Both the position numbers and the translations under genes were made by a program. A stretch of 43,071 bases of DNA from a virus: positions 1 through 43,071 of IMG/VR virus record IMGVR_UViG_3300023235_000043. The stretch is one strand, 5' to 3'. Below, piece after piece: positions 1-43,071 of the stretch. The notes beneath the pieces were generated by a model that worked only from the letters and a program-made list of their open reading frames with translations, was not told the DNA's origin and did no database searches. Each line of letters opens with the position of its first letter. The stretch's first letter is position 1.

Positions 1-56
1 CAGCCGACTCGACGGCACAACGTGGCCGCCTAACTCAACCCCGTAGCTCCGCAACC

Positions 57-90
57 CCGCAGCGCTGGTACCGACTCGCCAGCGCTGCGG
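57..90. repeat. 12-bp perfect inverted repeat
   Basis: CCGCAGCGCTGG (57-68) and its exact reverse complement (79-90) flank a 10-base loop. The GC-rich stem would form a stable hairpin in RNA or single-stranded DNA. No T-tract follows on either strand, so it is not a standard intrinsic terminator. A replication, packaging or regulatory role is possible but unproven. Confidence 0.75.
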
Positions 91-246
91 ATTGAATCAA
101 AAATTTCTCGCTTCGCTCGTTCAATGAGTTCGCAGGGCTCACGAAGCATTACAAGGTAAGTGGTTAAGCAAGCAACATAGACTCGCTAGTCGCTCGACTC
201 ATTGAGGGCAGGAAAGGACAGGCTAGTCGCCTGACTTATTAAGATG

Positions 247-306
247 AAACACCACACAACAACTCAACCACAAACCAAACACAACACAACAACAAAAAAC
301 AACAAA
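247..306 (+). other. A/C-only leader tract
   Basis: Sixty bases contain no G and a single T (264); all the rest are A or C. Such a strand cannot fold on itself. It lies about 90 bases upstream of the first late gene, so it would be an unstructured 5' leader in a late transcript or an easily opened segment in DNA. Its role is unknown. Confidence 0.7.
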
Positions 307-392
307 GCACCGGGCGGTACCCCCCATCCTGGAGTAGGGCCGGGGACTGTAAATATAGCTCACTCAAAGTAAATCAGAAAAAAATTTCACGC

Positions 393-1061
393 ATGTCAGA
401 CTTGACTCACCAGGACGAAGGGCCGGAGATAGTGGCGGCCGAGGCAGAGGTCTTGGCGCCCGTCGAAGGAGTCATGATTCCGGCAGCGGTGGTTGCGGAG
501 TATGGGAAGATCGCGACTTACCAGGGGTACGGTGTCAGTGACTCATCCATCATGGACAGCCTTGGAATTGACAGCGCTGTTTATCTGGCGATACTTGAGG
601 ACCCCGCATTTAAGGAGATACTTGCGAGGAGTACTAGCGCGATCGTCGGGCAGGCAGTGGAGACGGACGCTTCGTGGGATTCATTGGAGAATCAGGCAGT
701 TCAGAAGCTGGACACATATTTGAAGATGTCCAGTGATCCGGAATTTAACTTGAAGGTTGCCGTGTTGGCTAACAAAGCACAGAGACGGACTCGTGGCAAT
801 GTGCCACTTGATCCTGGGAGCTCAGGTTCCCGGGCCGTTATCACTTTGTCTCAGCGCATGATTCAGAAGCTAGGCGCTAGTAAGCAGGAGGAGCAGCGAC
901 TCGAAATCCCTAGGGTAAATGGGGCCGAGCCCGAGCGCCAGGTTGAGACTACCGTGACAGTGACTCAGGAAGTGGAGTCCAAGGAGCCTTCCCGGAATGC
1001 CCTCAGTGAGGGTGACGTCCGGGGATTCTTCGAGGATGCGCTCGGGGGTGTTGCGCGTTGA
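393..1061 (+). CDS. Putative terminase small subunit
   Basis: A 222-aa protein directly upstream of, and overlapping, the terminase large subunit. Position is the main reason for the call: phage packaging genes usually come as a small DNA-recognition subunit followed by the large motor subunit. The middle (about residues 35-135) is predicted helical, with a segment GYGVSDSSIMDSLGI that could be part of a helix-turn-helix. The C-terminal third is charged and probably flexible. The ATG at 393 is preceded by an A-rich stretch without a clear Shine-Dalgarno sequence. Its stop overlaps the next start in a TTGA. I do not recognise a specific family, so the function is inferred from context. Confidence 0.55.
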   Translation: MSDLTHQDEGPEIVAAEAEVLAPVEGVMIPAAVVAEYGKIATYQGYGVSDSSIMDSLGIDSAVYLAILEDPAFKEILARSTSAIVGQAVETDASWDSLENQAVQKLDTYLKMSSDPEFNLKVAVLANKAQRRTRGNVPLDPGSSGSRAVITLSQRMIQKLGASKQEEQRLEIPRVNGAEPERQVETTVTVTQEVESKEPSRNALSEGDVRGFFEDALGGVAR

Positions 1062-2611
1062 AACGGCTCCCAGAGGATATCCTTGAGTCAGACTTAGAGT
1101 CAGCCACTAAGGTTCTTGAACATCAGTTGGGCCTCGCGCAGGCTGATGTGGAGGATACCAAGCGACTCCTCTACTCTGACACAGAGTTCCTCCTAGAGTT
1201 CTTCCTGCACCAGCAGTTGGAGTTCGAGGTTCCTGAGATTCACCATGAGGTGTTTTCGAAGATCAAGGACCTTGAACGCCAACGACTCTTACTCGCGATT
1301 CCCCGAGATCACGCTAAGACCACCCTAGCGAAACTCGGGGTTATCTGGTACTTCCTGTTTACCAAGTTCCGATTCTGCGTGTATCTCAGTAACACGAGTC
1401 CTATCGCAAAGAATGCGTGTAGGGATATCATCGCGTTCCTACAATCGGAGAACTTCAAGACCATCTATGGCTCCATCACCTTCGAGAAAGAGTCGGAGAC
1501 TGAGGGGTTATGGATATTTCGCATCCCTGGAATCAATGGGGAAGTGGGTAAGCGGTGTATCCTCCGCGCGATGGGTGCAGGGCAGCAGGTTCGCGGACTC
1601 AACATCGACAACCAACGTCCCGATCTCCTGGTCAGCGATGATCTGGAGGACAGGGAGAACACTAAGACCGAGGCGCTACAGAAGGCACTCGACGAGTGGG
1701 TGTATGGTACGCTTCTAAAAGCGCTCGGTCGGCGAATCAAGATCATCTGGATCGGCAATATGCTGGCCCGAACGAGTCTCCTGTCCCGCCTCAGTGCGAA
1801 GAAGCGGTGGAATCCCGTCGTGTATGGTGCGTTGGTCAGGTCAGAGGAAGGACTCGTTCCGCTCTGGCCTGATCGTTGGCCTCTGAAGTTGCTGATGGAG
1901 GATTACCAGGAGGAGGCGAGTCTAGGATTAGCTCACATCTGGATGGCCGAAATGATGAATATGCCAGTCAGTGGGGGTAATGGGTTCAGTGAGGAGTCAA
2001 TCTTCTATGACCATCCTCCTATTCCAGAGGAAGCGAAGGCCGCGTTTATCTGCGTGGATGCCGCATTCACTCAACAGACATACAGTAATAAGACTGCGAT
2101 CGCGGTACATGTGATTCGTGAGGACGCGTGTCCTATAGTCGCGGACTACTGGATGGGGAAGGCTAAGGAAGGAATCCTCGTTGACCGGATAGCGGAGAAG
2201 ATGGTTGAATGGAACGTACGAGTCGTTGGGTTGGAGACAGGTGGGGCTAACAGTTCCTTTCACGCCTACTTCAAGCTGGCTATGGCTATCGAATACCCGT
2301 ACTTAGACTACGAGATCGCCCCACTCTCCACTGGGAATGCGTCTAAACTGGCGCGGATCACGCCTTTTATCGAGTCAATGGCAAGGAAGAATTACGCGAT
2401 TCCTCTGTTTGACCTTACTCTAGCCAATCAGATCATGGCGTTTGATAAGACTCGGACGGATAATGAGGATGATTTGCTTGATGCGGCTGCATACGGACTC
2501 CAGATGATAGACAAGTATTTGTTCCTCATAATGGCGTCCGCAAAGCCCCTAGGGCCAAATGAGATTCGTGGCGGGAAACCCCGTTACGGAATCAGCTTAG
2601 CGAGGCATTAA
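1058..2611 (+). CDS. terL: Terminase large subunit
   Basis: The 517-aa packaging motor pumps DNA into the procapsid and cuts concatemers. The N-terminal ATPase shows a Walker A-like loop PRDHAKTT (82-89), as in many terminases with a variant P-loop, and a Walker B segment DLLVSDDLED (189-198). The C-terminal RNase H-fold nuclease shows three acidic sites: D334 in FICVDAAFT, E393 in GLETGG, and D472/D475 in DDLLDAAAYG. The length is normal for the family. The start is TTG at 1058, overlapping the previous stop as TTGA, with GGGGGTG about 9 bases upstream; the same TTGA arrangement recurs at the polymerase gene. The portal gene follows with no gap. Confidence 0.93.
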   Translation: MKRLPEDILESDLESATKVLEHQLGLAQADVEDTKRLLYSDTEFLLEFFLHQQLEFEVPEIHHEVFSKIKDLERQRLLLAIPRDHAKTTLAKLGVIWYFLFTKFRFCVYLSNTSPIAKNACRDIIAFLQSENFKTIYGSITFEKESETEGLWIFRIPGINGEVGKRCILRAMGAGQQVRGLNIDNQRPDLLVSDDLEDRENTKTEALQKALDEWVYGTLLKALGRRIKIIWIGNMLARTSLLSRLSAKKRWNPVVYGALVRSEEGLVPLWPDRWPLKLLMEDYQEEASLGLAHIWMAEMMNMPVSGGNGFSEESIFYDHPPIPEEAKAAFICVDAAFTQQTYSNKTAIAVHVIREDACPIVADYWMGKAKEGILVDRIAEKMVEWNVRVVGLETGGANSSFHAYFKLAMAIEYPYLDYEIAPLSTGNASKLARITPFIESMARKNYAIPLFDLTLANQIMAFDKTRTDNEDDLLDAAAYGLQMIDKYLFLIMASAKPLGPNEIRGGKPRYGISLARH

Positions 2612-7470: not shown

Positions 7471-8190
7471 ATGGCCACCACATACTCACAACTGGTTGAT
7501 GAGATTCTCTCGCTGTCGGCGCGACCAGATCGCACGGTAGCGATTCAGCGATTCGTCAACCAGACGATTCGTGAGTTGCATTCGGATGAGAAGGGTGGAG
7601 TGTTCTTCTTCGACAAGAACTTGATTGAAGATCAACTCACCGCTGATGCGAACAGCGGGTTCTCGTGGACTACTCCTGCGGGATTCCAGCGAATGCAGAC
7701 GGTAAGATACCAAGGCCAGGCCGATCGGGAGAATCCCCAGGGCGCGTATGCGAAGGCGTTGCGCCCTGGAGTCGGACAGAATCGCGTGGCTCACTTCTAC
7801 TACCGCGCGGGCAAGGTTGTTTACTTCTCTGGGTATGGACTCTCGGGAGATGTGATTGATATTGCGTACTACCAGTTTCCGAAGCATCTCGCTTATTACG
7901 AGTCCGCCCTACGTCCCGCATCGTGGGATCTCCCTACGACTGAAGCGGACGGGGATGCGGCCTACTCGTACCTTACCGCCACGACGGCGGCAGAGAAGGT
8001 GATCGCAGAGGGACTCAGCACCAACTGGCTGCTGGAAGATTGGGACGATCTGGTCCGCGAGGGATCGCTGGCTAAGGTGTATAAGTTGCAGGCTGACACG
8101 GAGAGAGCTGCGACTCATTTCTCCCTGTATCAGCGACAGCGCCCGGCCCTCTACACGACTGAGGCGTTCGTGCAAGTGAGTGCGATGTGA
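7471..8190 (+). CDS. Putative head-to-tail adaptor protein
   Basis: A 239-aa protein located where adaptors sit, after the capsid genes and before the tail genes. It begins with helices (YSQLVDEILSLSARPDRTV, then AIQRFVNQTIRELHSD), followed by a beta-rich middle (about 75-135) and a helical C-terminal half. This agrees with gp11/gp6-like adaptors that bind below the portal and seal the head. The helical start with 'a short array of catchments for an adaptor ring' is a general impression rather than a motif match. It ends in GTGA, overlapping the next start. Confidence 0.6.
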   Translation: MATTYSQLVDEILSLSARPDRTVAIQRFVNQTIRELHSDEKGGVFFFDKNLIEDQLTADANSGFSWTTPAGFQRMQTVRYQGQADRENPQGAYAKALRPGVGQNRVAHFYYRAGKVVYFSGYGLSGDVIDIAYYQFPKHLAYYESALRPASWDLPTTEADGDAAYSYLTATTAAEKVIAEGLSTNWLLEDWDDLVREGSLAKVYKLQADTERAATHFSLYQRQRPALYTTEAFVQVSAM

Positions 8191-8780
8191 GCCGCGAGTT
8201 CCTTCATACTCCTTCTCGCGAACCAGGAATCTCCGACCGGTTTCTCCTGCTTCTCCGCCACGATCTCCGCGAACTCTCCCTTGGGGTGAGTCAAATTGGC
8301 ATCGAGCATATCTCCGTCGTCCGCACGACTCAAGAGTATCCGCTAGGGGCAAGAGGGAAGTTTTGGTGTAGTGCTTACGGTATGTCCGTTGTTCGTTATG
8401 TCAAGTTCAGCACGATGGTGGCCGGAGTTGGCGGCCCTGTTGGATTCCTTGCAGCCGCCGCCACATTCAATTGGATTGTAACCAATGACTTCTCCGCTTC
8501 GGCAGCTGGACTCGCATGTGGATTGTTGCCTCAGGACTCAGTGCCAGCGAGCGGCAGCTATGGGTGGGTGTTGGTTCAAGGCGCCAACCGTCAAGCCGTT
8601 GGAATCAAAGGCGCGGAATCTCATTCTGCACAAGAACCCCTTGCGTGGACAGACGACGACGAGGTCTCTTCCGCGAGTGTTACGTTTGATATAGCCTTCG
8701 CTCGTAAAGTAGTTACTGGCAGCAAGGCGGGGAGTTACGCTGTCGGGGAATTTTACGTATCATCTCCCTGGTTTAGCTAA
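8187..8780 (+). CDS. Virion-region protein of unknown function
   Basis: A 197-aa protein starting at GTG 8187, overlapping the previous stop as GTGA. Its first 60 residues are basic and its C-terminal 130 residues are glycine-, serine- and alanine-rich beta-type sequence with segments such as VAGVGGPVGFLAAAATFNW and ASGSYGWVLVQGANRQAVG. That composition is common in surface or fibre-like virion proteins. An internal ATG at 8382 could start a shorter form of about 132 aa, but the overlap favours the long one. I do not recognise a family. Confidence 0.6.
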   Translation: MSREFLHTPSREPGISDRFLLLLRHDLRELSLGVSQIGIEHISVVRTTQEYPLGARGKFWCSAYGMSVVRYVKFSTMVAGVGGPVGFLAAAATFNWIVTNDFSASAAGLACGLLPQDSVPASGSYGWVLVQGANRQAVGIKGAESHSAQEPLAWTDDDEVSSASVTFDIAFARKVVTGSKAGSYAVGEFYVSSPWFS

Positions 8781-29681: not shown

Positions 29682-29827
29682 CGTATTGAGTCCTCTCGGT
29701 ACACACCACGGGGGACCGTGAAGTAGGTGATCTTAATGGGCCACACCCAGACTACGACTCGTCTGAATCCCCCAGGGGTGAAGGTGGAAACGAAGGTGCC
29801 GCGCCACTGTTTGTACCTGATCTTCAT
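29678..29827 (-). CDS. 49-aa basic protein in overlap with neighbours
   Basis: A 49-aa frame that exactly fills the gap between the zinc-type protein and the polymerase. Its ATG (29827) overlaps the upstream stop as ATGA, and its TGA overlaps the polymerase TTG as TTGA. The product starts MKIRYKQWRGTFVSTF and contains the beta-rich, aromatic segment VVVWVWPIKITYF, with about ten basic residues. Overlaps on both sides, the same as at confirmed genes here, are the main evidence. Function is unknown; it may serve mainly to couple translation into the polymerase. Confidence 0.65.
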   Translation of the reverse strand: MKIRYKQWRGTFVSTFTPGGFRRVVVWVWPIKITYFTVPRGVYREDSIR

Positions 29828-30147
29828 GCGGGTGGACGCAACTCATCAATGTGAGTTCCGCAACGAGTACACACCTTGGGGTCCTCGCTCGCTACATGGC
29901 CGGGGCAGGCTTCGGGATCGTACAGGTATTGCCTCCCCGTCACATCTGGACGAACCCGCTCTTCGAACTCAGGCCAAGAAGGGCTAACGCGGTCGAGGGT
30001 TCTTCGAATGACCGTTGCCATGTCCTCTAGGTAGGACGAATCGCTTTTGATGAGGCTGGCTTCCTCAAGCCATCTGGCTCCATCCCTCAGCACCGCCTCA
30101 GCCGCGATTAGCGTGGCGCGCAGTTCTTCCTTCACCGGATCAGTCAT
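29824..30147 (-). CDS. Small protein with C-terminal zinc-knuckle pattern
   Basis: A 107-aa protein. Residues 1-70 are helical and charged. The C-terminus has C81, H84, C93 and C96 (ACPGHVASEDPKVCTRCG), a plausible four-ligand zinc site. Such small helical proteins with a zinc knuckle often bind nucleic acid or a partner protein; nothing more specific can be said. ATG 30147 lies eight bases before the end of the TSCPD gene and is preceded by GAGGGAGTCAC, with GAGTC joined to the ribosome site. Confidence 0.65.
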   Translation of the reverse strand: MTDPVKEELRATLIAAEAVLRDGARWLEEASLIKSDSSYLEDMATVIRRTLDRVSPSWPEFEERVRPDVTGRQYLYDPEACPGHVASEDPKVCTRCGTHIDELRPPA

Positions 30148-31070: not shown

Positions 31071-31138
31071 TCTGTTTTCCAATTCAGTGTGTTACTCTGT
31101 GATGATGTGACTCGTGTCCCATCAGGTAGTCCCGTGAA

Positions 31139-31327: not shown

Positions 31328-31336
31328 GGGGTAGCC

Positions 31337-32672: not shown

Positions 32673-32926
32673 CAATCCATATCCTGTCTTGCCCATGACT
32701 CGGCTTGTACCCTGCGGTGTTCGCGCTGTGCTTCTGGAGTCATAAGCGCGAACTGTCTAAGGGATTCGTCCACCAAATCCTGCAAAGGCTGGCGGCGGTC
32801 AGGGTGAATATAAGTAATCGACAGACTCCCCTTGCCTCCATGCTTTAGCATGGTTATCTGGGAGTCAATCTGCCCCTGTATTGCCGCACGCGAAATTGCG
32901 TCGTGATCTATCTGCCACCACTCCAT
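32672..32926 (-). CDS. Small helical protein of unknown function
   Basis: An 84-aa protein (MEWWQIDHDAISRAAIQGQI). It has a long amphipathic helix at the C-terminus with many E, Q and R residues (TPEAQREHRRVQAESWARQ). No motif is recognised. ATG 32926 overlaps the previous stop as TGATG; a TTG just before it shares the frame. It is one of a chain of coupled small genes in the recombination operon. Confidence 0.6.
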   Translation of the reverse strand: MEWWQIDHDAISRAAIQGQIDSQITMLKHGGKGSLSITYIHPDRRQPLQDLVDESLRQFALMTPEAQREHRRVQAESWARQDMD

Positions 32927-33351: not shown

Positions 33352-33503
33352 AGAATTCCCCACCAACGCAAGGTGCGCTCAAAAGATTCGGGGGATAGGA
33401 TGAGCCATACAAAGCCGGACACGGTGACTCCTAGCATGAAGTTCATTACATGTCCTATCACTTTGACAAGAATGGGGAGGGGGAATACGGGGACTCTAAA
33501 CAT
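33348..33503 (-). CDS. 51-aa membrane protein
   Basis: A 51-aa frame joined at both ends: its ATG (33503) overlaps the 60-aa gene's stop as TGATG, and its TGA overlaps the next TTG as TTGA. AGGGGAAGCTG lies upstream of the start. The product has a long hydrophobic stretch (about 5-37; FPLPILVKVIGHVMNF, then LGVTVSGFVWLIL) and a basic C-terminus (ERTLRWW). One transmembrane segment is likely. Small membrane proteins in early operons can act on host membranes or on superinfection, but that is only a possibility. Confidence 0.65.
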   Translation of the reverse strand: MFRVPVFPLPILVKVIGHVMNFMLGVTVSGFVWLILSPESFERTLRWWGIL

Positions 33504-33685
33504 CAGCTTCCCCTCACTCCGAGTCGGCGCATCCGACGTGCCATCGCTACCATTATCCCAGACCAGTCAAAGCCTGCCCGTGCGTGCTGAGTCGCACCAA
33601 ATCCACCATAACTATTCCGGTTACGCTTGCCATGCCGGTTAGTGCTACGGCGCGAACGAATCATGTGGTTGCGTTTACTCGTCAT
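33503..33685 (-). CDS. 60-aa arginine-rich protein
   Basis: A 60-aa protein with about 17 basic residues (MTSKRNHMIRSRRSTNRHGK, then RNRN), followed by a more hydrophobic half (FDWSGIMVAMARRMRRLG). GAGGGAGATAAGTC lies just before ATG 33685, which itself overlaps the stop of a 20-aa frame. Its charge suggests nucleic-acid binding. It ends in TGATG with the membrane-protein gene. Confidence 0.6.
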   Translation of the reverse strand: MTSKRNHMIRSRRSTNRHGKRNRNSYGGFGATQHARAGFDWSGIMVAMARRMRRLGVRGS

Positions 33686-33744
33686 GACTTATCTCCCTCA
33701 GTGAGAAGGAACTCAATGATTGCCGCCTGTCTACGCAGACTCAT
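33682..33744 (-). CDS. 20-aa coupling peptide
   Basis: A 20-codon frame starting MSLRRQAAIIEFL. ATG 33744 overlaps the exonuclease stop (ATGA), its TGA overlaps the next ATG (TCATGA), and a strong GGAGGGG lies seven bases upstream. The product could form one short amphipathic helix. It may be a true micropeptide or a leader that passes ribosomes from the exonuclease to the arginine-rich protein. Confidence 0.5.
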   Translation of the reverse strand: MSLRRQAAIIEFLLTEGDKS

Positions 33745-34721
33745 ACCATCCCCTCCGGAATCGGAATGGAGAACTTCACCCACGGGTCCCACTTGGGTAA
33801 CTCCGCAGGCTCTTCCTCCAGTAGAATCATTTCCTGCAACTTCTTCTTGTCATCATAACCACAGATGCCAAAGTAGTGGCAGACCTTATTGAATCCTACG
33901 CAGCCATACTCACTGCGAGGAAAGATATCCATCAGCATGAATGAGTTGATCTTGCGTAGGTCAAGAATCAGGGCCATGACCCAGCGATCAATGTCGCTGC
34001 GATTCTTTTGGAAGTCCAGCATTTGAATGTCGGGATCAAGCAAGTCCACATAACTCGCGAGGTAAAGAACCTCGAACTCGTCAATGGCCTTGTGCATGGA
34101 GTGCTCGACTACCATACCATACGGGACTTGCTGCCCGTGGAATGAGAACTTGGGAGTCAAGTCCTTCATCCTGTCACGGTGAGTCTTAATGTCCAGGGTG
34201 CGGAACGTGTCGTACATCTTCGCGTACATAATCGCATCAATGTATCCGATGTAACTCACAGGCATTCCGTTGTGAAGCTTCACTCCCTCAAGCACAATCT
34301 CGAAGGGAACTTCAACGGCAGGCTTCTCGATTCCATTGTGCATCACCGTCGCCAACTCATACCCACTCATCACGGGAGTCGCAATCATCTTGAGCATGGT
34401 GGCAAGCGCGGCTTCAAGCCCTCGATCATTCTGAGGATCAAAGGACTCGGTGTACTTGTAGGGAAAGGACTTCATCAGGCGCCAGATGGCAGCGTCGCGA
34501 TCGCCATACGCGAGGTAATGCTGATACCCCTCATGAATCGCGGTGCCTACGTCGGCAGCCCACATGGTAGGCTCGCCTGACTCCCGGAACTCTGGGTGCT
34601 TATAGAGTTTGGCGAACTCGAACTTGGCAGCGCAGTTGTGCAGGGTGCCACGAGTCGAATGACTCAGGTAGAGGCGGCCTGCTTCCCGGCGCGGGGTGTC
34701 GTCAACCACAGCCTCATTCAT
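33741..34721 (-). CDS. PD-(D/E)XK exonuclease with possible Fe-S cluster
   Basis: A 326-aa nuclease of the RecB/Cas4 type. Motifs: GTAIHEGYQ (59-67), acidic E137 and E141, GYIDAIMY with D162, TLDIKT with D177 and K179 (the D-x-K core), and QVPYG (198-202). Four cysteines, C30 and three near the C-terminus (CVGFNKVC followed by HYFGIC), could hold an iron-sulfur cluster as in AddB and Cas4. It would resect DNA for recombination with the Sak4-like ATPase and SSB-like protein encoded downstream. ATG 34721 overlaps the upstream stop (ATGA), with GGACTCAAGAT before it. Confidence 0.88.
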   Translation of the reverse strand: MNEAVVDDTPRREAGRLYLSHSTRGTLHNCAAKFEFAKLYKHPEFRESGEPTMWAADVGTAIHEGYQHYLAYGDRDAAIWRLMKSFPYKYTESFDPQNDRGLEAALATMLKMIATPVMSGYELATVMHNGIEKPAVEVPFEIVLEGVKLHNGMPVSYIGYIDAIMYAKMYDTFRTLDIKTHRDRMKDLTPKFSFHGQQVPYGMVVEHSMHKAIDEFEVLYLASYVDLLDPDIQMLDFQKNRSDIDRWVMALILDLRKINSFMLMDIFPRSEYGCVGFNKVCHYFGICGYDDKKKLQEMILLEEEPAELPKWDPWVKFSIPIPEGMV

Positions 34722-35320
34722 ATCTTGAGTCCACTCAGCTTAGCCATGATGTCACTGCCACCGAGAATGTCAGCAACAGCCTCGGCTGCGGCGATAGCCT
34801 TCTGAGTCGTGGGAGTCTTCTTCTTACCCCCCGTACCCGTCCGCTTCTTACTCGCCTTCACAACCTGGGCGATTCCCATGGACTCTGTCATGGCGAGGAT
34901 CATGTTACCACAATCCGAGTCCTCGATATGTTCCTCGAACTCTGGGTGGGCTCCCATTTCAACCATCACGGAACGGATGGCTTGAGTCAGAGCTTCGGGC
35001 TGATCCAACAGCAGCGGGATTGACTTGATGTTCGCAATGAATTGCTCGAAGGCTGGCTGGTCCGCATCGAATCGCGGAGCATTCGCAATCGCCTTCTTGA
35101 TATCATCGTCAACGTCTGACACCTTCAGCTTACCAGCATTGGAGAGTGCTATCTCCCGACTCACCTGCGGCTCCGCAACCACAACTTCGTCAGCTCCAGT
35201 GTCCGTCGATACTGTAGAGTCAGCAAGGGGTTCGCTTCCTGCGACTGGGACAACACTCTCCAACTTCGGAGTCGCATCAGCCTGTTGGCTGCGCGCAATT
35301 AGTTCTTGTAATGAAGCCAT
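34718..35320 (-). CDS. Alanine-rich protein of unknown function
   Basis: A 200-aa protein with a flexible acidic N-terminal third (rich in V, D, E, S, T), a helical middle (KKAIANAPRFDADQPAFEQF, then ALTQAIRSVMVEMGAH) and a basic linker KASKKRTGTGGKKKTP before a final alanine helix. A charged tail with a basic linker is common in nucleic-acid-associated phage proteins. Position between the first gene of operon 2 and the exonuclease suggests a replication or recombination helper, without proof. Confidence 0.55.
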   Translation of the reverse strand: MASLQELIARSQQADATPKLESVVPVAGSEPLADSTVSTDTGADEVVVAEPQVSREIALSNAGKLKVSDVDDDIKKAIANAPRFDADQPAFEQFIANIKSIPLLLDQPEALTQAIRSVMVEMGAHPEFEEHIEDSDCGNMILAMTESMGIAQVVKASKKRTGTGGKKKTPTTQKAIAAAEAVADILGGSDIMAKLSGLKI

Positions 35321-35325
35321 GTCTC

Positions 35326-35658
35326 TTATAACTCCAGGGTTTTGAGTGTCTTACGCACGGAGTCACTGACTCTCGTAGTCGTAGACGTAACGCGCATGAG
35401 AATGAGTTGGACCTTATCCTCTTCGCCAATCACATCACGTACCTCCGCAAGAATCTTAAACGCCTGCAATTTAGTATTCTTGTTGCGGGCCAGCTTGCGG
35501 ATTCGTGAGTACGAAGACCGGATGCGTTGCAGCATCAGCGGGGCTTCTCTTCGACTCAACTCGATGATGTAGGGCGTGCCAATAGCAGTCAGGGCAAGGC
35601 GCTCAACATGCAGCTGAGTCGAGGAAGTGTAAACGATATCGGGACTCTCTTCGGTCAC
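35326..35658 (-). CDS. First protein of operon 2, unknown function
   Basis: A 110-aa protein starting at GTG 35658, about 20 bases after the predicted transcription start of the promoter at 35688-35716. AAGGACCACC precedes it. The sequence has a beta start (DIVYTSSTQLHVERLALTAI) and then helices (RSSYSRIRKLARNKNTKLQ, DVIGEEDKVQLILMRV). The lysine- and arginine-containing middle suggests nucleic-acid contact. No family is recognised. Confidence 0.6.
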   Translation of the reverse strand: MTEESPDIVYTSSTQLHVERLALTAIGTPYIIELSRREAPLMLQRIRSSYSRIRKLARNKNTKLQAFKILAEVRDVIGEEDKVQLILMRVTSTTTRVSDSVRKTLKTLEL

Positions 35659-35687
35659 GCTAGGTGGTCCTTTCTTGTACGATCATT

Positions 35688-35716
35688 ACAGTATCCTTAA
35701 ACCAAAAGTATGTCAA
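35688..35716 (-). promoter_or_regulatory. Sigma70-type promoter of operon 2
   Basis: On the minus strand, TTGACA (a perfect -35, 35711-35716) is followed by 17 bases and TACTGT (35688-35693; weak -10). TGTAAT lies three bases further on, at a 20-base distance, so the exact -10 is not certain. It sits in an otherwise non-coding gap between a small zinc-type gene and the first gene of the recombination/replication operon. Confidence 0.7.
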
Positions 35717-35722
35717 GACTTA

Positions 35723-35986
35723 TTATTCGATTCGCAGAATTGCTTTGTGGAGTTCCTGGAAACGACTCCTGTGCGTCTCCGTGTCCGGAGTGCTGATTGG
35801 TATGCGCGCGTGTAGCATCGCCAATCCGAATCCGATACGATGGAGGGGAACCTCGGCCTTGTCTCTGAGGTAGTCCACAGAGTCGCTAAAGCAGAGATGA
35901 CAGAAGACGTGAGCAGGTGGAGGCCCCGCACTCGCTCCGATGTGTCGGTGACAGGCACAACACTCAAGACGATGGATGTGAGTCAT
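35723..35986 (-). CDS. Small zinc-ribbon-like protein
   Basis: An 87-aa protein with two CxxC pairs, C9/C12 (ECCACHRH) and C29/C32 (VFCHLC), a typical zinc ribbon, followed by a basic helix-rich C-terminus. GGAGAGGCTG lies upstream of ATG 35986, which overlaps the endolysin end by 23 bases. Phage zinc ribbons often bind nucleic acid or host proteins; nothing more specific is visible. It is the last gene of the endolysin unit. Confidence 0.65.
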   Translation of the reverse strand: MTHIHRLECCACHRHIGASAGPPPAHVFCHLCFSDSVDYLRDKAEVPLHRIGFGLAMLHARIPISTPDTETHRSRFQELHKAILRIE

Positions 35987-36593
35987 CAGCCTCTCCTGAC
36001 CAGCCCCACTCCGCTAACCGCTCAATGGCATGTTCGTAGCAGGTGGATTCATCCGTACCCCAAGTCAATTCCTGCGACCTATCAAGGATTGCATTGAGTC
36101 GGAGTCCCTTGGGCATGGGAGTTTCGGCCACCGGAACCTGCAAGTGGTACACATCCCCCCGGAGATTCGCAAAGTCCGCACCCGATTCTAGCTTGAACTC
36201 ATGGGCCTTACCTATGAGTCCTGCGTAGGCTTCCGGCGTCCAGACCGCTTTCATTTCCATAGCATCGGTCCGGTACACATCCAACGCGAGTCCATACTGA
36301 TGGTAACTCTCACCGGGCCTGGCGTTTGTAATGTGCGGCCCTGTCTGCGGACCTACTTCCTTCAGTACTCGTGCCGCAAACGCACAACGATTCAGGATGA
36401 GGAGCGAGATAGTAGTGTTAATGTCCAGCGAGGGACGCGACTGCCTCCACATCCTGGCTTGGCTCCAAGGATCACGAAGACAATCGTAGGGAACAAAGTT
36501 CTCGCCTGCTTTGAGTCGGTTCTGCTTAAGCTTGTTCCATCGCACCTGCAATCTGGGGCGAAGCAAAGCTACGTCGCGTCGTGGATTGTACAT
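35964..36593 (-). CDS. Endolysin, M15 peptidase type
   Basis: A 209-aa peptidoglycan peptidase. The M15/VanY signature is clear: SYHQYGLALDVY gives zinc ligands H98 and D105, and GDVYHLQV gives H150; QARMWRQSR (45-53) corresponds to the upstream conserved QxR-type segment. M15 endolysins (for example L-alanyl-D-glutamate or D,D-peptidases) cut the stem peptide. There is no signal peptide, so release through a holin is expected; the holin candidate is on the other strand. ATG 36593 lies 67 bases inside the preceding gene with AAAGGAATGGGATATCA upstream. Later in-frame TTG codons could give a slightly shorter form. Confidence 0.85.
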   Translation of the reverse strand: MYNPRRDVALLRPRLQVRWNKLKQNRLKAGENFVPYDCLRDPWSQARMWRQSRPSLDINTTISLLILNRCAFAARVLKEVGPQTGPHITNARPGESYHQYGLALDVYRTDAMEMKAVWTPEAYAGLIGKAHEFKLESGADFANLRGDVYHLQVPVAETPMPKGLRLNAILDRSQELTWGTDESTCYEHAIERLAEWGWSGEADDSHPSS

Positions 36594-36807
36594 TGATATC
36601 CCATTCCTTTGCGAGTCGCCTTAAGGTCGGTTCCGTCACAGCGTTGGGAAGGGCGGAACAGAAGGTACTCAAACTGGTTGGGCCGAGTCCCATCTCGGCA
36701 GAAGTGGTAGCAATTCGGGCCTCTAGTAGCTTGGGATAATGGCGGGATTGAATCTTCTCATCAATGTCCGCCAGTATCTCACGCGCCCACTGCTTGAACT
36801 GAGTCAT
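36526..36807 (-). CDS. Small protein at the head of the endolysin unit
   Basis: A 93-aa protein. Residues about 35-75 (TTSAEMGLGPTSLSTFCSAL, then TLRRLAKEWDIN) look like a helix-turn-helix or Cro-like DNA-binding fold; the rest is helical. A small regulator controlling its own promoter (36837-36864) and the endolysin is an attractive idea but is inference. GGGAG lies upstream of ATG 36807. Confidence 0.6.
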   Translation of the reverse strand: MTQFKQWAREILADIDEKIQSRHYPKLLEARIATTSAEMGLGPTSLSTFCSALPNAVTEPTLRRLAKEWDINVQSTTRRSFASPQIAGAMEQA

Positions 36808-36836
36808 AACAATCTCCCATCAAGTTCGGATGGTTG

Positions 36837-36864
36837 ATTATATCTTAACTATCCAAGATGGCAA
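36837..36864 (-). promoter_or_regulatory. Sigma70 promoter of the endolysin unit
   Basis: On the minus strand, TTGCCA (36859-36864; five of six matches) is followed by 16 bases and a perfect TATAAT (36837-36842). It is in a 62-base intergenic gap just before the 93-aa gene. The endolysin unit therefore has its own strong host-type promoter within the early block. Confidence 0.8.
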
Positions 36865-36869
36865 GTGGA

Positions 36870-37211
36870 TTATTCCTGACTCTCCTCGCGCATCGCTACC
36901 GCAAAGTCCTCGATGGCAAGACACAAACGATTCGCCATGTTGAGGGCAAAGTTATTGGCGAGGTCCCGCAGGCGATCCCGATGCCTCTCGTTTGCGATTC
37001 GCGCGGGTAGCGGCGGCACAGGGACTATCCCTTGGGTGACTCCTTGTGCATCCACCACGGCGTAGTAGGCACCATTGAATCCATTGGATGCCACATACAG
37101 AGGGTACGGGATGGGGAGTTCAGTCGCACGCAACGTACAGCGCGACATAAATTCCCTCTCTTTCTTGCCTCGCCCCTCTGCGGCACTCCCAGTCACTCCG
37201 GATACGTTCAT
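36870..37211 (-). CDS. Protein of unknown function
   Basis: A 113-aa protein starting MNVSGVTGSAAEGRGKKER. After a flexible start it has a beta region (ELPIPYPLYVASNGF, then YYAVVDAQGVTQGIVPVPP) and a C-terminal helix with arginine residues (ERHRDRLRDLANNFA). ATG 37211 overlaps the previous stop as ATGA. An internal ATG at MSRCTL could also be used. No family is recognised. Confidence 0.55.
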   Translation of the reverse strand: MNVSGVTGSAAEGRGKKEREFMSRCTLRATELPIPYPLYVASNGFNGAYYAVVDAQGVTQGIVPVPPLPARIANERHRDRLRDLANNFALNMANRLCLAIEDFAVAMREESQE

Positions 37212-37429
37212 GTCTTTGCCTCCAATGATTTGAGTCTCTGCCGCATCCCATAGCCGTCCATGATTAGCTGCGCGATGTGATCCTCTAACTTTACGATTCG
37301 TTCCTCAGCTTCGGTAGCTGCTCGCTCTTCCTGGTCTACCTCCGCCTCGATCTCTAAACACTTGCCGCATTGAGTCTCGCCGTGTCGTGCGATGTTTCCG
37401 CACTTGCAGGGCTTGGGGTGGCGGCTCAT
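37208..37429 (-). CDS. Zinc-finger and coiled-coil protein
   Basis: A 73-aa protein beginning MSRHPKPCKCG. Cysteines C8, C10, C21 and C24 form a zinc-binding site, and residues about 28-73 form a charged coiled coil (EERIVKLEDHIAQLIMD). The build recalls small phage proteins that bind nucleic acid or RNA polymerase. ATG 37429 is preferred because it overlaps the previous stop as ATGA, with AGGGAGTCTTGGTC upstream. Confidence 0.65.
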   Translation of the reverse strand: MSRHPKPCKCGNIARHGETQCGKCLEIEAEVDQEERAATEAEERIVKLEDHIAQLIMDGYGMRQRLKSLEAKT

Positions 37430-37806
37430 GACCAAGACTCCCTATGCTTATGCCCAGCTCCGTAGAGTTCTTTCTCCGTGGGCGTCAGCTTACGCCAGCG
37501 AATGATAGAAAGGACTCCGCTGCTGCTACGACCAGGGGCATCGCCCATGAAGCGAGCCCAGGCCCCCTCGATGGATTCGAAATCTCCCGTGTCCGTCTTT
37601 CTCACCCCCTTTACTTGTGAGTCCCAGAACACTAGCTGGGGATAGCGGTACGCCACATAACGTGTTGCGGGCTGACGCATTCCCCGATGCCGACCGACAA
37701 GAGTCCAGCACTCCTCACAGATGGTAAAGAGTACAGTCCCGTCGCGGGGTGCCGCGTCTAGGTCGTCAAACAGCTGGGCAGTGAGTGCCCCCTCTGCGGC
37801 ACTCAC
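37426..37806 (-). CDS. Protein of unknown function, DUF551-like context
   Basis: A 126-aa protein starting at GTG 37806 (MSAAEGAL), overlapping the upstream stop as GTGA. The stretch APRDGTVLFTICEECWTLVG resembles the 'aPrDGt.I' start seen in small phage proteins with tryptophan-rich strands (TRYVAYRYPQLVFW). Two cysteines (CEEC) could bind metal. The comparison to a family is loose, and the function is unknown. Confidence 0.55.
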   Translation of the reverse strand: MSAAEGALTAQLFDDLDAAPRDGTVLFTICEECWTLVGRHRGMRQPATRYVAYRYPQLVFWDSQVKGVRKTDTGDFESIEGAWARFMGDAPGRSSSGVLSIIRWRKLTPTEKELYGAGHKHRESWS

Positions 37807-38318
37807 GAGTCCGCCTCCACCAGATGGAACTTCCCTTCCAGGGCTTCCCTAATCCGGTTGGCGATCCCCACGGAGGACTCCTCTTCATCCCCGTATATGT
37901 GGAACGCATCGAGGGTTACAGGAGACCTCAGCCCCGTAAGAGTCACCGTGATCTTAGGGCAGGAAAACAGCTTCTCGTTCAACTCCGCCTCCTCCTCTGC
38001 CATCGAGTCCTTCTCGTACTGATCCCACTCCTTCGGGTTCGTGACTGCGATCCACAGCTCGGCATACTCATGCGTACTCAGCTCGATCACAGTCACCTTG
38101 CCCTCGGTCATCTTGAGTGAGAAGTCGTCGAAGTCTGCGGACATCAGGGCTTTTGTGACGCTACCGGGAGTCGTACCCCGCAACGCCCAAGCGTTGAGTA
38201 TCTTTCCCTGTAATGGATAGTCGTTTGTGACTCGGAAGCGAATTTGATGCGCGTGGCTCGGTCCAGTCTGGACGCAAGCGCGGTATTCCTTACCGACTTC
38301 GAGTTTAGTTGCTGACAT
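37803..38318 (-). CDS. Protein of unknown function downstream of the helicase
   Basis: A 171-aa protein starting MSATKLEVGKEYRAC, rich in beta strands with acidic helices between (EKDSMAEEEAELNEKLF). ATG 38318 lies 14 bases inside the end of the helicase gene, with GGAGACTCAAG upstream. The repeating beta pattern and small size fit a helicase or replication helper, but no known family is recognised. Confidence 0.55.
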   Translation of the reverse strand: MSATKLEVGKEYRACVQTGPSHAHQIRFRVTNDYPLQGKILNAWALRGTTPGSVTKALMSADFDDFSLKMTEGKVTVIELSTHEYAELWIAVTNPKEWDQYEKDSMAEEEAELNEKLFSCPKITVTLTGLRSPVTLDAFHIYGDEEESSVGIANRIREALEGKFHLVEADS

Positions 38319-40884
38319 CTTGAGTCTCCAATGTTTGCTGAACCCGCAGTTCCTTGGGATGCGGCAGGAAGTGCGCGGGTCCACTCCCTGACGCGTAGGC
38401 CGGATCATCCTTGGGTAAGGACTCGCCGGACCATTCGAGAAACTTCTGCGTCTTCTCTTCCATCGTGTTGCCCTTTATCATCTGATTCCTCAGTGCGCTA
38501 CTCAGGCCACGACCATTGTATAGCAGGACCACTCGCTCTGCCCCACGAGTCACTGCGGTATACAGCCACTCGCGGTAGCACATGCGGGCCACGGCAGAAT
38601 GCACCACGACGATCACAGTCTTACACTCGCTGCCTTGCAGCTTGTGGCATGTCATGGCGTAGGCTAGGGTGAGTCCTTGGATTCCACCAACGGTATCGAA
38701 TGGGCGGACAATCTCTTCGCCTTCAAGGTTGAGCCCGAAGTTAACCGTGACGATATGGGTGGCTGCGCGACTCGTGAACTCCTCGCTGCCTTCCTCGTCT
38801 TGCTTCCGCCGGTTGCCCGTGTTGCGGTTGGCGACTGCAATCCCTTGGACTTCGACACTCGTACCTGCGATGGAGTCCTTCACGGCCTTGATGCGCTCCG
38901 CAGTCTCAAACGTCGCGTTGCCGTTGCGCTTGATATCGACCACGATTCCTACCATACCATTGGTAAGATTGTTCGCTCGATCGTTCTTGAGTACCATCAC
39001 CTTGTCGCCAACCGCGAAGTGCTTCTGCTCGAATCCTGCGTCGATGACGGTGCGGACTCCCTTGATCTCGCCTGAATGTTCTTTCGGGCTTGGGTTGAAC
39101 TGCCCCACATAGAATGCGTTGAGCGGGAGTTGCCCCATGTTGTACGATTTGGACTCCGCATTGTCTCCATTGGTCGGGACAATGACGGCATCAGTATCAG
39201 GATTGAAGGCTCCTTCACGACTCAGCTTCACAGCTACCGCCTTGATGCGGGTCACGGCGCCCATGATTCGTTTGCCGTTGTCCATGTAATCGTTAATGGC
39301 TCCTCCAATGTCCAGCATGTCGAACTTGCCGGGAGTCTGGACAGGCATCTGGCCGTTGAGGATTCGCCAAGCATTCTCGACGATGGGGTTAGTCTCGCCC
39401 TTCTGCCTATGAATCTTGGTGAGTTCAAAGGAGGGGTACTTGTTCAGTGCGAATCCAAAGATCGAGCGGCCCTGTACCGGGGGCAGCTGATTGATATCCC
39501 CGATGAAGTAGACGCGAGTTCGAGGCTTCAGCGCATCAAAGAGCTGTTTCGCCAACGGAAGCCCCAGCATCCCGGCCTCATCAATGATAATGAAGTCGAG
39601 GTCCAGGGGGTTGAGTCTATTCCGGCCAGGAACGAATCGCATGGTAGTCCGGTTCGCCGCATCAAAGGGCTGTTTCCCCTTGATCGAGGGGTCCCAGACT
39701 TCATAGAACTCAGGAGCGAACTCAAGGAGTCCATGGATAGTGTCGCAGAGTCCGTGGAACTTACCAGGAAGATTCTTCTTCTGTTGTTGGACTGCCTTGC
39801 CCGTGTAGGCCACGACTGCGCCATTGATTGCGATGCCATCTTCCAGCATCTTACCGGCAGCGAGGGATTGTAGCCTATCAAGGAGGAGTCGAGTGATGGC
39901 AGACTTGCCCGTACCGGCGGCTCCCGTCATGCAAGCGTAGAAGTGCTGCATGAGTCCACCCAGTGCGGCTCTCTGAGAGGGGTCGAGCATCGCCTCTGTC
40001 ACGGTGAAGGCGTCTACCTCCTGAGGAGTCGGAGGTAGATCAGGGGGCATTTGCAGGACAGGAACGTCTTCGGGTTCCACGAGTGCGGGCGTTGTCTTGG
40101 CGATTTCCTCGACGAGTTCCTGGGGAGTCGCTGCTTCCTGCTTCTGGGCGGCGATCAATTCCTGCAAGGTACGTCGAGGAGCCGGGGCGAGAGGGAGGGG
40201 AGTCGGAGGCGCGGTGGCAGGTGGTACGCCCTCTTTGGCAAGAGTCGACTCCGGCTCGCTTACCGGCTCCTCTTTCGGTGACAGAACCACTAGATCCTCG
40301 CTGAAGTATTTCTTCGCGAGTCGGATCACATGGGGCTTCTGCTTGTCTGTGTGTTCCCCACTCCACTCGCGGAGGCGGGAGAAGAACTCTAGGTCGCGGG
40401 CTTCCACGTTGTCGTGCTTGATGCGAGTCAGATACATCTTCGCCTTGCGGTAGTCCTCGCCGATCACTTCCTCGGCGCGTGGAGTGGTTACTTCCTTGCG
40501 CTCGGTGAATCGTGCGAGACTCGCGTTAGCGGCGGCCTCTAGTGCGGGCCGTTCCTCAGCCATTAGTTCAAGGTTGAGTCCCTTGAGCTGCGTGTTCTTA
40601 TATAGGTCCAGCGCGTCATACATCCACGCGACGTTGGCAGGGGATAAGTCCTTGCCGTCACGGAGTAGACTCGCTATCCACTTGCCCTTACTGGCGTGCT
40701 GGCCTGCGAATCCAATGTCATCATGGCTATTTGCGCCATCACACTGGGAGTCGAGCAGGGCCATCGCGGTATAGGCTACCGGAATGTTAGTGACTTGGGC
40801 CGACGCCTGAGCGATCTGAGTCATCTCAGGGGCGGGCGGCGCGGGATTTGCGGCTGCGCGCATTTCAGCGATTGACGGACTCAT
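38305..40884 (-). CDS. RecD2-like DNA helicase with long N-terminal extension
   Basis: An 859-aa SF1 helicase. ATG 40884 is preferred (MSPSIAEM; ATGA overlap, AGGAGTCCCAAG upstream); a start at 40902 adds six residues. In 865-aa numbering, Walker A is GAAGTGKS (327-334), motif II is IIIDEAG (438-444), motif III is GDINQLPPV (468-476), and the C-terminal end has TLAYAMTCHKLQGSE and LYTAVTRG motifs V/VI. The first 300 residues are not helicase: two helical parts separated by a proline/alanine-rich linker (APPTPLPLAPAPRR). It would unwind DNA for replication or recombination. Confidence 0.9.
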   Translation of the reverse strand: MSPSIAEMRAAANPAPPAPEMTQIAQASAQVTNIPVAYTAMALLDSQCDGANSHDDIGFAGQHASKGKWIASLLRDGKDLSPANVAWMYDALDLYKNTQLKGLNLELMAEERPALEAAANASLARFTERKEVTTPRAEEVIGEDYRKAKMYLTRIKHDNVEARDLEFFSRLREWSGEHTDKQKPHVIRLAKKYFSEDLVVLSPKEEPVSEPESTLAKEGVPPATAPPTPLPLAPAPRRTLQELIAAQKQEAATPQELVEEIAKTTPALVEPEDVPVLQMPPDLPPTPQEVDAFTVTEAMLDPSQRAALGGLMQHFYACMTGAAGTGKSAITRLLLDRLQSLAAGKMLEDGIAINGAVVAYTGKAVQQQKKNLPGKFHGLCDTIHGLLEFAPEFYEVWDPSIKGKQPFDAANRTTMRFVPGRNRLNPLDLDFIIIDEAGMLGLPLAKQLFDALKPRTRVYFIGDINQLPPVQGRSIFGFALNKYPSFELTKIHRQKGETNPIVENAWRILNGQMPVQTPGKFDMLDIGGAINDYMDNGKRIMGAVTRIKAVAVKLSREGAFNPDTDAVIVPTNGDNAESKSYNMGQLPLNAFYVGQFNPSPKEHSGEIKGVRTVIDAGFEQKHFAVGDKVMVLKNDRANNLTNGMVGIVVDIKRNGNATFETAERIKAVKDSIAGTSVEVQGIAVANRNTGNRRKQDEEGSEEFTSRAATHIVTVNFGLNLEGEEIVRPFDTVGGIQGLTLAYAMTCHKLQGSECKTVIVVVHSAVARMCYREWLYTAVTRGAERVVLLYNGRGLSSALRNQMIKGNTMEEKTQKFLEWSGESLPKDDPAYASGSGPAHFLPHPKELRVQQTLETQDVSN

Positions 40885-41144
40885 CTTGGGACTCCTGGCC
40901 ATCCTGGGAATAGTTTCATTAGGTGTTTCTCGAACCGGCGGGCGAACTCTTTACCCGTTTCGCGACTCATCTTTGCCCGCTTCCATTCGACAAAAGTGCC
41001 GCCCGTTTCAAGATTGGTGGGCGCGTGGCGCATGACTTCGCGAAGTTCGGGAGGCATCGAGTCGAATAGCATCCAGTATTTCTTGTCGGTTTGGGCGACC
41101 TTTGGATCGCCCTCGCCGACATTGGTTTGTTGGTACTTTGTCAT
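40881..41144 (-). CDS. Small basic protein before the helicase
   Basis: An 87-aa protein. The middle (WMLFDSMPPELREVMRHAP) followed by a basic helix (KRAKMSRETGKEFARRFEKH) recalls small alphaproteobacterial and phage proteins with an 'LP..lR..m..A' motif; the similarity is weak. GGAGGGCTGAGTC precedes ATG 41144. It ends in the helicase start (ATGA). It may act with the helicase. Confidence 0.6.
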   Translation of the reverse strand: MTKYQQTNVGEGDPKVAQTDKKYWMLFDSMPPELREVMRHAPTNLETGGTFVEWKRAKMSRETGKEFARRFEKHLMKLFPGWPGVPR

Positions 41145-41456: not shown

Positions 41457-42576
41457 CGGACTCAACCTTCTTGAAGAATGCCGTGACTCCAGCTTCCTCA
41501 TGTAACTCCAACGCGGCCATACCCTCGTCGCGCTTGGCGGCTGTGGCTGCGAGTCGTTCGGCCAGGGTTTTGCCGCCCGATTGCTTAGGCGCGGCGGCCT
41601 TGCGTTCCGCGTGCCACTTCTTCGCGCCGGACTCCAGTTCCGGGCTAATCTCGCGCATCTTCTTCGCGACTCCAAACGTGCCCTTGAGTGCGTCTGCGAC
41701 CACGATTTCCATGAAGGTTGCTTGCGTGATTATGGACTCCTTCTCAACCGGGCGCATAAGAGTGGCGCGGTGGAAGGCATTAGCGGAATGGCCGAAGAGA
41801 TTGAACTCGCGTTTGAACCAGCTAGGACTCGCCTTGTACTGCTTCCAGTAATTCTCGATTAGTTCCAGCAATTCGTCGAGTACAGGCTCGCCACCGATTA
41901 ACTCTTGTGGAGTCAAGTAAGGGAATACCAGGTGGCGTAGTCCCAGTTCCGAGTCGATGGCAGTCATCGCCGTGTTGAGTCTGCCAAGTTTCGCCAGGGC
42001 ATCGACCGGCAGGGCCGCAAGGTGGGCATATAACTTGATCTTTGCCCGAGTCCATGCGGCCTGGTCAGACGTAGTGCGCCAGCTGATGCGGCCGTTGTCG
42101 AGTTTGTTCTTGTAGCGTAGTGACTCACGCCATAAGAGCTGGTCGGTCATGTAGACAAAGAATCCCGCAGGGTCGATTTCGCTGAGTGTGTGGAGTGTGT
42201 CGGGGTCGAGTCGTACCCAGGCAGGATGCACTCGGTAACTCAGGGCAATCTCCTCACGGAGTCCCGCGTGGGATGGTGCCTTCTGCGCTTTCTGGTAGAG
42301 ACTCAGCGCGTCGAGCGACAGAGTGCCGATGGGTTGGCCGGTGCGCGAGCAGTAGATGGCCCGCGAGTCGATCTCCTCATCGGTATGGGGCTCGACGGTA
42401 TCCACGAAGCTGCGGGCACTCGCCCAGTCAATTATCGTGAGTCCCCGCCTTGCGAGGATTTGGCCGAATAGGGCCGTTTGCCGGGTGTGGAACTTCGCAC
42501 GAGTCATCTTCTCGACTCGTTCCGCCGAGCGGGTGGCTGCGGCGGCGATTGCGGACTCATTAACTTTGATGGTCAT
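41449..42576 (-). CDS. 375-aa early protein of unknown function
   Basis: A 375-aa protein, the largest of the first early operon. ATG 42576 overlaps the previous stop as ATGA; a start 14 codons upstream would overlap more and is unlikely. Mostly helical. Residues about 70-85 contain YCSRTGQPIGTL, an isolated C-x3-G-Q-P-I-G pattern of unknown role. The C-terminus (about 300-375) is basic and then acidic (AAPKQSGGKTLAERLAATAA). No catalytic motif is recognised. Being second in an operon with a strong promoter, it is made early and probably in quantity. Confidence 0.6.
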   Translation of the reverse strand: MTIKVNESAIAAAATRSAERVEKMTRAKFHTRQTALFGQILARRGLTIIDWASARSFVDTVEPHTDEEIDSRAIYCSRTGQPIGTLSLDALSLYQKAQKAPSHAGLREEIALSYRVHPAWVRLDPDTLHTLSEIDPAGFFVYMTDQLLWRESLRYKNKLDNGRISWRTTSDQAAWTRAKIKLYAHLAALPVDALAKLGRLNTAMTAIDSELGLRHLVFPYLTPQELIGGEPVLDELLELIENYWKQYKASPSWFKREFNLFGHSANAFHRATLMRPVEKESIITQATFMEIVVADALKGTFGVAKKMREISPELESGAKKWHAERKAAAPKQSGGKTLAERLAATAAKRDEGMAALELHEEAGVTAFFKKVESDD

Positions 42577-42800
42577 TGTGGTGTCCCCCGAGTCGTAACC
42601 GCATACTGGGGAGTGCATAGCGGGCGAACAGTCATTAAAGATGGTGTCGGGTAGACTGGACTCGCGTGCTCATCCCACCATTTAGTCGCTTGTGCGGGCG
42701 ACTCAAAAGGCCCGAAGATTTCGGGCTCATCCCAAACCTCGGGAGTGCCGTCCGGATTTAAGAGTCGCAATTCTAGGATATAGCCTGATATGGTTTTCAT
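42573..42800 (-). CDS. First early protein, unknown function
   Basis: A 75-aa protein (MKTISGYILELRLLNPDG) with a beta-rich start, an EPEIFGPFESPAQATKWW segment, and a short end. This kind of small alpha/beta fold is frequent in phages but has no known function. ATG 42800 follows GGAGTCAGAAAC; the leader contains a 17-bp palindrome. It is the first gene behind the right-end promoter, a usual place for host-takeover proteins. Confidence 0.6.
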   Translation of the reverse strand: MKTISGYILELRLLNPDGTPEVWDEPEIFGPFESPAQATKWWDEHASPVYPTPSLMTVRPLCTPQYAVTTRGTPQ

Positions 42801-42823
42801 GTTTCTGACTCCACTGTAGATGA

Positions 42824-42840
42824 TGCCTGGAATCCAGGCA
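42824..42840. promoter_or_regulatory. 17-bp palindrome in the early leader
   Basis: TGCCTGG and CCAGGCA are perfect inverted repeats around AAT. It lies about 10 bases downstream of the predicted start of the right-end leftward promoter (42858-42887) and 24 bases before the first gene. It could be an operator for a dimeric regulator or a 5'-end hairpin protecting the early mRNA. Confidence 0.6.
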
Positions 42841-42857
42841 GACTCTTGCCATGCAAA

Positions 42858-42887
42858 AGATTAGCACGCATTTGATATAAATGTCAA
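42858..42887 (-). promoter_or_regulatory. Sigma70 promoter of the first early operon
   Basis: On the minus strand, a perfect TTGACA (42882-42887) is followed by 18 bases and TAATCT (42858-42863), preceded by TGC, an extended -10 element. The region is AT-rich. It is the only promoter-like sequence upstream of the long operon from 42800 to 36870. Confidence 0.8.
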
Positions 42888-43000
42888 GGACTAAGATTCG
42901 ACTCATAATATTAATTACGCGGCTCTTACGATGTTACTAAGGGTTAATGGTCCTTGCGGGAATCGGAATGAATCCGTCAGACTCTGGGCGTGAGTCGATT

Positions 43001-43029
43001 TTGCCCAACATTACACTTAGACTTATCAT
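43001..43029 (+). promoter_or_regulatory. Rightward sigma70-type promoter at the right end
   Basis: TTGCCC (43001-43006; four of six) is followed by 17 bases and TATCAT (43024-43029; five of six). Two copies of CATTACACT (43009-43017, 43027-43035), one on each side of the -10, may be a binding site for a regulator. It points out of the window; it would transcribe the late genes at 393 if the end of the window joins its start. Confidence 0.5.
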
Positions 43030-43071
43030 TACACTAACCACTTCGGCGGACCCTCCCCCTGCGCCCGCCCA

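Follow-up and report, generated by a model that had tools for sequence, protein, structure and literature searches.

Gene content of the window

The window, by which we mean the whole stretch of DNA analyzed, is the complete IMG/VR virus record IMGVR_UViG_3300023235_000043 (43,071 bp); its gene calls are our own choices of open reading frame (ORF), and some of the small ORFs are doubtful. The large terminase subunit (1058..2611, + strand; PHROG 38, E 8e-63) served as the marker for a tree. The gene at 8187..8780 (+ strand) represents the sole family found in all nine GANTC-rich genomes compared and in none of nine others. In relatives its homolog is long and adjoins a fibritin-like protein; from this length and this neighbor, the product is probably a virion or tail-fiber protein. 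Minus-strand genes include a PD-(D/E)XK nuclease of the RecB/Cas4-like exonuclease type (33741..34721; PF12705, PHROG 69/1218) and a RecD/Dda-like superfamily 1 helicase (38305..40902; PF13245, PF13604, PHROG 325). Genes for a DUF6378 protein (25328-25681), a family 2 glycosyltransferase (25691-26665), a TSCPD-domain protein (30140-30541), and a VanY-like endolysin (35964-36593) are without homologs in the relatives compared. No methyltransferase match was obtained among the window proteins scanned.

The densest kilobase for GANTC lies at the right end (42001..43000), with 24 copies, including 19 of GASTC (GAGTC or GACTC). The longest GANTC-free gap (29765..30038; 273 bp, compared with a random median of 437 bp) spans two small doubtful ORFs, and the next longest are at 196-404 and 23898-24097.

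GANTC is enriched beyond coding constraints

GASTC occurs 413 times in the window (186 GAGTC and 227 GACTC), where base composition predicts 91 and a dinucleotide model 130, and ranks first among 512 5-mer classes. The initial annotation had noticed this excess in single kilobases counted by eye; its counts of 9, 9, 12, and 9 became 9, 9, 11, and 9 on recount, and the excess is larger than was stated there. Within genes, the 375 copies compare with 125 ± 9 in codon-preserving synonymous shuffles (z 27.9), the test that the annotation had proposed, and with 232 ± 9 in a stricter shuffle that keeps the codon-junction context (z 16.3). Plus- and minus-strand genes alike carry a 2.7-3.2x excess, in all codon phases, and the enrichment is strongest in the 2.9 kb of noncoding DNA (38 copies, 5.9 expected), which bears out the claim that it extends to both gene strands and to noncoding sequence. 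GAGTC and GACTC differ in strand counts (186 versus 227), with a bias that is mixed along the genome. Codon or amino acid usage is ruled out as the cause by the synonymous and junction-preserving shuffles together with the noncoding enrichment. Dispersed repeats were likewise rejected, the piece searched (G012 20001-40000; L093) containing only short, diverged repeats, as was a longer hidden consensus around GANTC, flanking preferences being only weak.

The remaining top-ranked words in the synonymous shuffles mostly overlap GASTC, with GAATC in addition. GAATC and GATTC together are also enriched (222 copies, 5.2 per kb, 1.9x) and lie unusually far from GASTC (60.6 bp versus 41.1 bp; z 9.2), farther than any other 5-mer, so both words fill one pattern. 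The annotation was thus right that the G/C-centered half is preferred, but its emphasis on GASTC alone was mistaken: GAATC and GATTC belong to the same class, and the unit is GANTC, of which the window holds 635 copies (227 GACTC, 186 GAGTC, 112 GAATC, and 110 GATTC). Among 112 gapped palindromes, none is more enriched than GANTC.

GANTC sites are regularly spaced and orientation independent

The notable property of these sites is their regular spacing rather than their number. Gaps between GANTC average 67.8 bp (about one site per 68 bp) with a coefficient of variation (CV) of 0.556, compared with 0.94 for random placement (z -10), the lowest CV of 667 motifs tested; the Fano factor is 0.25-0.4 at scales from 100 bp to 3 kb. 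GASTC alone is also regular (CV 0.65 versus 0.95 random, z -6.5), the runner-up among 153 5-mers reaching 0.84. Sites exclude one another within 60 bp to a similar degree in all orientation pairs (ratio 0.31-0.54 across ++, --, +-, and -+). Because the exclusion is independent of orientation, GANTC works as a duplex palindrome and not as a strand-specific signal. This behavior, and the need for a copy every ~60 bp, disfavor two roles offered in the initial annotation, a strand-specific Chi signal and, less firmly, a primase start site, which would be read on a single strand with a lagging-strand bias. Chi is asymmetric and strand oriented; like GANTC it is a short over-represented word, and GANTC too could influence the action of a nuclease or helicase, but GANTC is palindromic and its orientation is irrelevant.

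The trait probably has a single origin in a phage clade

A terminase profile scan of IMG/VR yielded 80 relatives, restricted to those sharing short conserved terminase peptides and including several fragments. The 28 GANTC-rich rows (2.2-3.6x) of the terminase tree all fall in one group with support 90, which adjoins a GANTC-neutral sister pair (L002/G002 and L016) within a fully supported clade; on this tree one gain of the trait would suffice. GANTC is the most enriched of the 112 gapped palindromes in all nine longer genomes, and in a regularity scan across loci every word listed at z<-3 is GANTC or a sub-word of it, and all come from members of the GANTC-rich clade. A separate contig (L003), which shares 12.4 kb with the window at 99.95% identity, has the same pattern; its six differences from the window in that segment, none inside a window GANTC, are too few to gauge turnover. 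Regular spacing recurs in a contig reached by way of a different gene (L134; 206 sites in 12.2 kb, CV 0.50). One GANTC-rich contig (G008) ends in 1.8 kb nearly free of GANTC (38479-40318), which may reflect a recent insertion or a chimeric contig terminus. No isolate or genome-collection contig was found inside the GANTC-rich clade. PaP2-like phages (Jamesmcgillvirus, Fredfastierviridae) are distant relatives of the window, as far as a similar layout and similar core genes at 21-31% protein identity indicate.

Other relatives treat the same word in the opposite way. GANTC is the most depleted palindrome in six GANTC-poor relatives (G030, G048, G043, L046, L053, and L071), and outer-clade relatives (G030, G048, L046, L053, and L071) are almost without it, with, for example, 2 copies in 31 kb where 136 are expected. 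In the Caulobacter phage Kuura it is the second most depleted palindrome (0.25x). As other relatives purge GANTC, a GANTC-reading factor appears to shape the phage family as a whole, in opposite directions.

When rich relatives that share 64% nucleotide identity are compared, 40% of GANTC sites coincide in position, as against 24% for the average word of the same form and up to 32% for control words. Judged from these alignments, GANTC positions turn over and spacing persists. Lost sites were not offset by gains unusually close to the old position.

Isolated writable positions are used most

We located all positions at which synonymous codons could spell GANTC and related their use to how far away the next GANTC lies. 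In the control genomes G002, PaP2, and Tiera, 17-22% of writable positions are used, flat over distance; in the GANTC-free relative G030, the figure is 0.3%, and for other palindromes in the window, overall use is 10-24%. In the window, use of GANTC is about at the control baseline less than 22 bp from the next site (29% and 23%), rises to 66-68% at 37-56 bp, 76% at 56-64 bp, 90% at 64-75 bp, and 96% at 75-90 bp, and is complete beyond 90 bp (100%; 26 of 26 writable positions). Pooled relatives follow the same course: use is ~20% below 22 bp and ~50% from 22 to 46 bp, and past 47 bp it is mostly 85-100%, although the two least regular members (G008 and G006) for the most part climb no higher than 60-80%. 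The window has only 19 unused writable positions at a distance of 60 bp or more from a GANTC, and several of these fall in doubtful ORFs; just 2.5% of bases have no site within 65 bp, compared with 14.5% under random placement.

This dependence on distance points to selection for coverage and not for word count. The test shows strong, continuing selection in the phage clade for coverage by the duplex palindrome GANTC: GANTC-free stretches longer than ~100 bp are usually removed where synonymous codons permit, and extra sites nearer than ~22 bp bring no detectable advantage and are roughly neutral. The idea of a “repulsion” between sites was replaced by one of diminishing returns, since close positions are used at about the control baseline and not below it.

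In intervals of 110 bp or more where both centers are writable, GANTC is present at 581 of 593 positions and is GC centered in 77%; positions that allow only the AT center are used as readily (81%) as those that allow only the GC center (75%). Where GANTC is unwritable in long intervals, the near-cognates GAGTG, GAGTA, and GAGTT rise 2-3x and unrelated control words stay flat.

Two explanations fare poorly against the distance rule. Biased mutation or repair might generate GANTC without benefit, as proposed for the cyanobacterial word HIP1, for which a methylation-dependent mismatch-repair model exists (PMC4390886), and some one-step neighbors (GAGTT, GAATC) are indeed raised in the window; such a process, however, has no reason to act only where the nearest other GANTC is more than ~50 bp away and to leave use below 22 bp at the control baseline, and we regard it as highly improbable. 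A titration decoy, in which hundreds of spaced sites soak up a GANTC-binding host factor, for instance CcrM or GcrA, and perturb the cell cycle of the host, would gain nothing from sites spaced by less than one protein footprint (~22 bp), as observed, and the Caulobacter phage phiCbK has its own GcrA homolog (PMC7987155). Titration, however, depends on total number and not on the removal of gaps, so that it does not predict the near-complete use of isolated writable positions, and the base after GANTC does not fit the GcrA motif. The decoy is, on balance, very improbable.

Second-order preferences vary among clade members

Beneath the distance rule, finer preferences are seen. Spacings of 25, 33.5, 50.5, 59.5, 77, 85, and 110 bp are preferred in pooled relatives, with structure-factor peaks at 27.5, 12, and 8.5 bp; short spacings in the window show a ~13-bp rhythm that exceeds smoothed-gap simulations, and several clade members have a G-rich block ~30 bp away from GANTC. 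Immediately 3' of GANTC, T is strongly avoided and purines are favored in pooled relatives; in the window, T is the lowest base (0.15). These quantized spacings, the G-rich block, and the avoidance of T are second-order features that vary among members. The avoidance of T, in pooled relatives and the window, fails to match the extended GcrA motif, which is YGAKTCK (PMC7987155).

Preferred spacings (near 25-34, 50-60, 77-85, and 110 bp), the structure-factor peaks, and the G-rich block are what would be expected if a DNA-organizing protein of virus or host coated the genome quasi-regularly, with GANTC setting the register, for packaging or compaction and not for defense. Such an array would not explain why members differ in their preferred spacings (~13 bp in the window, weak in G020) or why close sites are used at baseline and not avoided. 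A comparison of the nine rich with the nine other genomes revealed no clade-specific DNA-binding or DNA-organizing gene, only the virion-like family. We consider a nucleoprotein array unlikely.

Candidate readers in phage and host

GANTC is the target of CcrM/HinfI-type methyltransferases, so that the word may be a methyltransferase target or a defense-related mark, as the initial annotation also suggested. A CcrM-family (PF01555) gene was, however, found in none of 51 related phage records (the same search being positive in 11 of 14 control genomes), and none of the 398 Pseudomonadota genomes sampled, the one phylum covered, comes near the density of the phages. Paired GANTC sites number 183 in 43 kb in the window and 354 in 49 kb in G012, and the densest bacterial genome has ~0.5 per kb. 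A GcrA gene (PF07750) was absent from all 15 phage records searched. The missing CcrM and GcrA genes and the missing bacterial density speak against the phages simply mimicking a tagged host; host methylation may nonetheless have a role, since GANTC is a CcrM target and other relatives treat the word oppositely.

One such role would be a methyl self-mark: methylation of GANTC by the host (such as one that has CcrM) would protect the covered phage against a defense that attacks DNA without nearby m6A. The identity of the word and its opposite treatment among relatives, from the most depleted palindrome in GANTC-poor ones to strong depletion in Kuura, speak for such a mark. CcrM is a strict enzyme, however, whereas GAGTN near-cognates respond here too, and no sampled bacterial genome approaches the phage density. 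In addition, Alphaproteobacteria bearing CcrM under-represent GANTC (PMC3973325), so such a defense would hit its own host. Taken together, we find a methyl self-mark distinctly unlikely.

The nuclease at 33741..34721 might speculatively be the enzyme whose action a GANTC tag governs. The phage's own machinery for degrading host DNA could spare DNA that has GANTC within reach and shred GANTC-poor host DNA, which would fit the single origin in a virus clade, the lack of such density in the sampled bacterial genomes, and the conservation of the PD-(D/E)XK nuclease and the RecD-like helicase. Yet the same two enzymes occur in untagged phages, namely the sister G002 and PaP2-like phages, and we know of no nuclease that is inhibited over ~50 bp around a 5-bp duplex word. 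This degradation-sparing scheme is, in our judgment, quite improbable.

As the only clade-specific family is virion-like, a reader would be encoded by the host, be a shared protein that has acquired a new specificity, or come from a gene that has diverged beyond detection. AlphaFold models of two conserved unknown proteins (mean pLDDT 66 and 56) were too poor to use.

A possible genome-wide tag read by a tolerant binder

The explanation that we favor, tentatively and at somewhat less than an even chance, is a genome-wide double-stranded GANTC tag that is read by a tolerant binder, with each site covering ~50-65 bp in either direction. A protein encoded by host or virus would recognize duplex GANTC (GASTC best, GAWTC nearly as well, and GAGTN weakly), and every site that is occupied or methylated would act on ~50-65 bp to both sides. 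Most likely, the tag would keep viral DNA from exposing long untagged stretches to something that requires them, possibly a processive nuclease, a translocase, or a silencing protein polymerizing along DNA; GANTC would then work as a dense self-tag or roadblock.

Several observations favor this tag: the distance-dependent use of writable positions with flat controls; the rise of GAGTN in long intervals where GANTC is unwritable, as expected of tolerant binding; the orientation-independent exclusion and the turnover of sites with spacing kept; and a trait that arises once in the terminase tree and is alien to the sampled bacterial chromosomes. Against it stand the virion-like character of the clade-specific family, the nuclease and helicase held in common with untagged relatives, and the preferred spacings (in relatives, and the ~13-bp steps in the window), which a simple roadblock does not predict.

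Stated more generally, the chance is nearly even that the clade has evolved a distance-ruled genome-wide tag by which a protein tells viral from host DNA by sequence alone, without the virus itself modifying any bases, as self-marking or as nucleoprotein coating. To our knowledge, viral DNA organization of such a kind has not been described before. A distance rule on a 5-bp palindrome governs codon choice genome-wide, and the clearest members write nearly every isolated opportunity, which implies a strong, constant pressure on every ~100 bp of viral DNA. The system that reads GANTC may be one of defense, counter-defense, or genome organization.

Comparison with known systems

The uptake sequences of Pasteurellaceae and Neisseriaceae (USS/DUS) are likewise over-abundant short words in coding and noncoding DNA, and GANTC shares with them both over-abundance and a spacing more even than chance. 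Two USS within 100 bp give uptake no higher than a single site, and their average distance is ~1,000 bp (PMC7811141). USS and DUS are longer, oriented, and bacterial, whereas here a 5-bp palindrome recurs every ~60 bp in a phage clade, and nothing about a phage genome leads one to expect a part in natural transformation. Cyanobacterial HIP1 (GCGATCGC) is also a highly iterated palindrome with a link to a methyltransferase target and graded one-nucleotide variants (PMC4390886); HIP1 marks bacterial chromosomes, whereas GANTC marks lytic-looking phages in which a methyltransferase gene was not found and a distance rule governs codons. The CcrM/GcrA system of Alphaproteobacteria has the identical recognition word, but CcrM-family and GcrA genes were not found in these phages, and the flanks are not YGAKTCK.

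Restriction-site avoidance in phages, too, is selection that acts across the genome on a single short palindrome, which in the GANTC-poor relatives is GANTC itself; in the GANTC-rich clade the sign is opposite, coverage being maximized rather than sites lost. In the window's coding sequence, four 6-bp palindromes are missing (CTCGAG, 0 versus 20.6 expected; ATCGAT, 0 versus 14; TGATCA, 0 versus 8; and ATGCAT, 0 versus 6), and GAGCT stands at 0.25x in synonymous shuffles, which suggests restriction systems of the host. GTAC is absent from G012 (IMGVR_UViG_3300035670_000330; 72 expected) and from G006 (3300012940_000088; 30 expected), an absence that looks typical of restriction-site avoidance, and is present at 1.8x in G017, G026, and G008.
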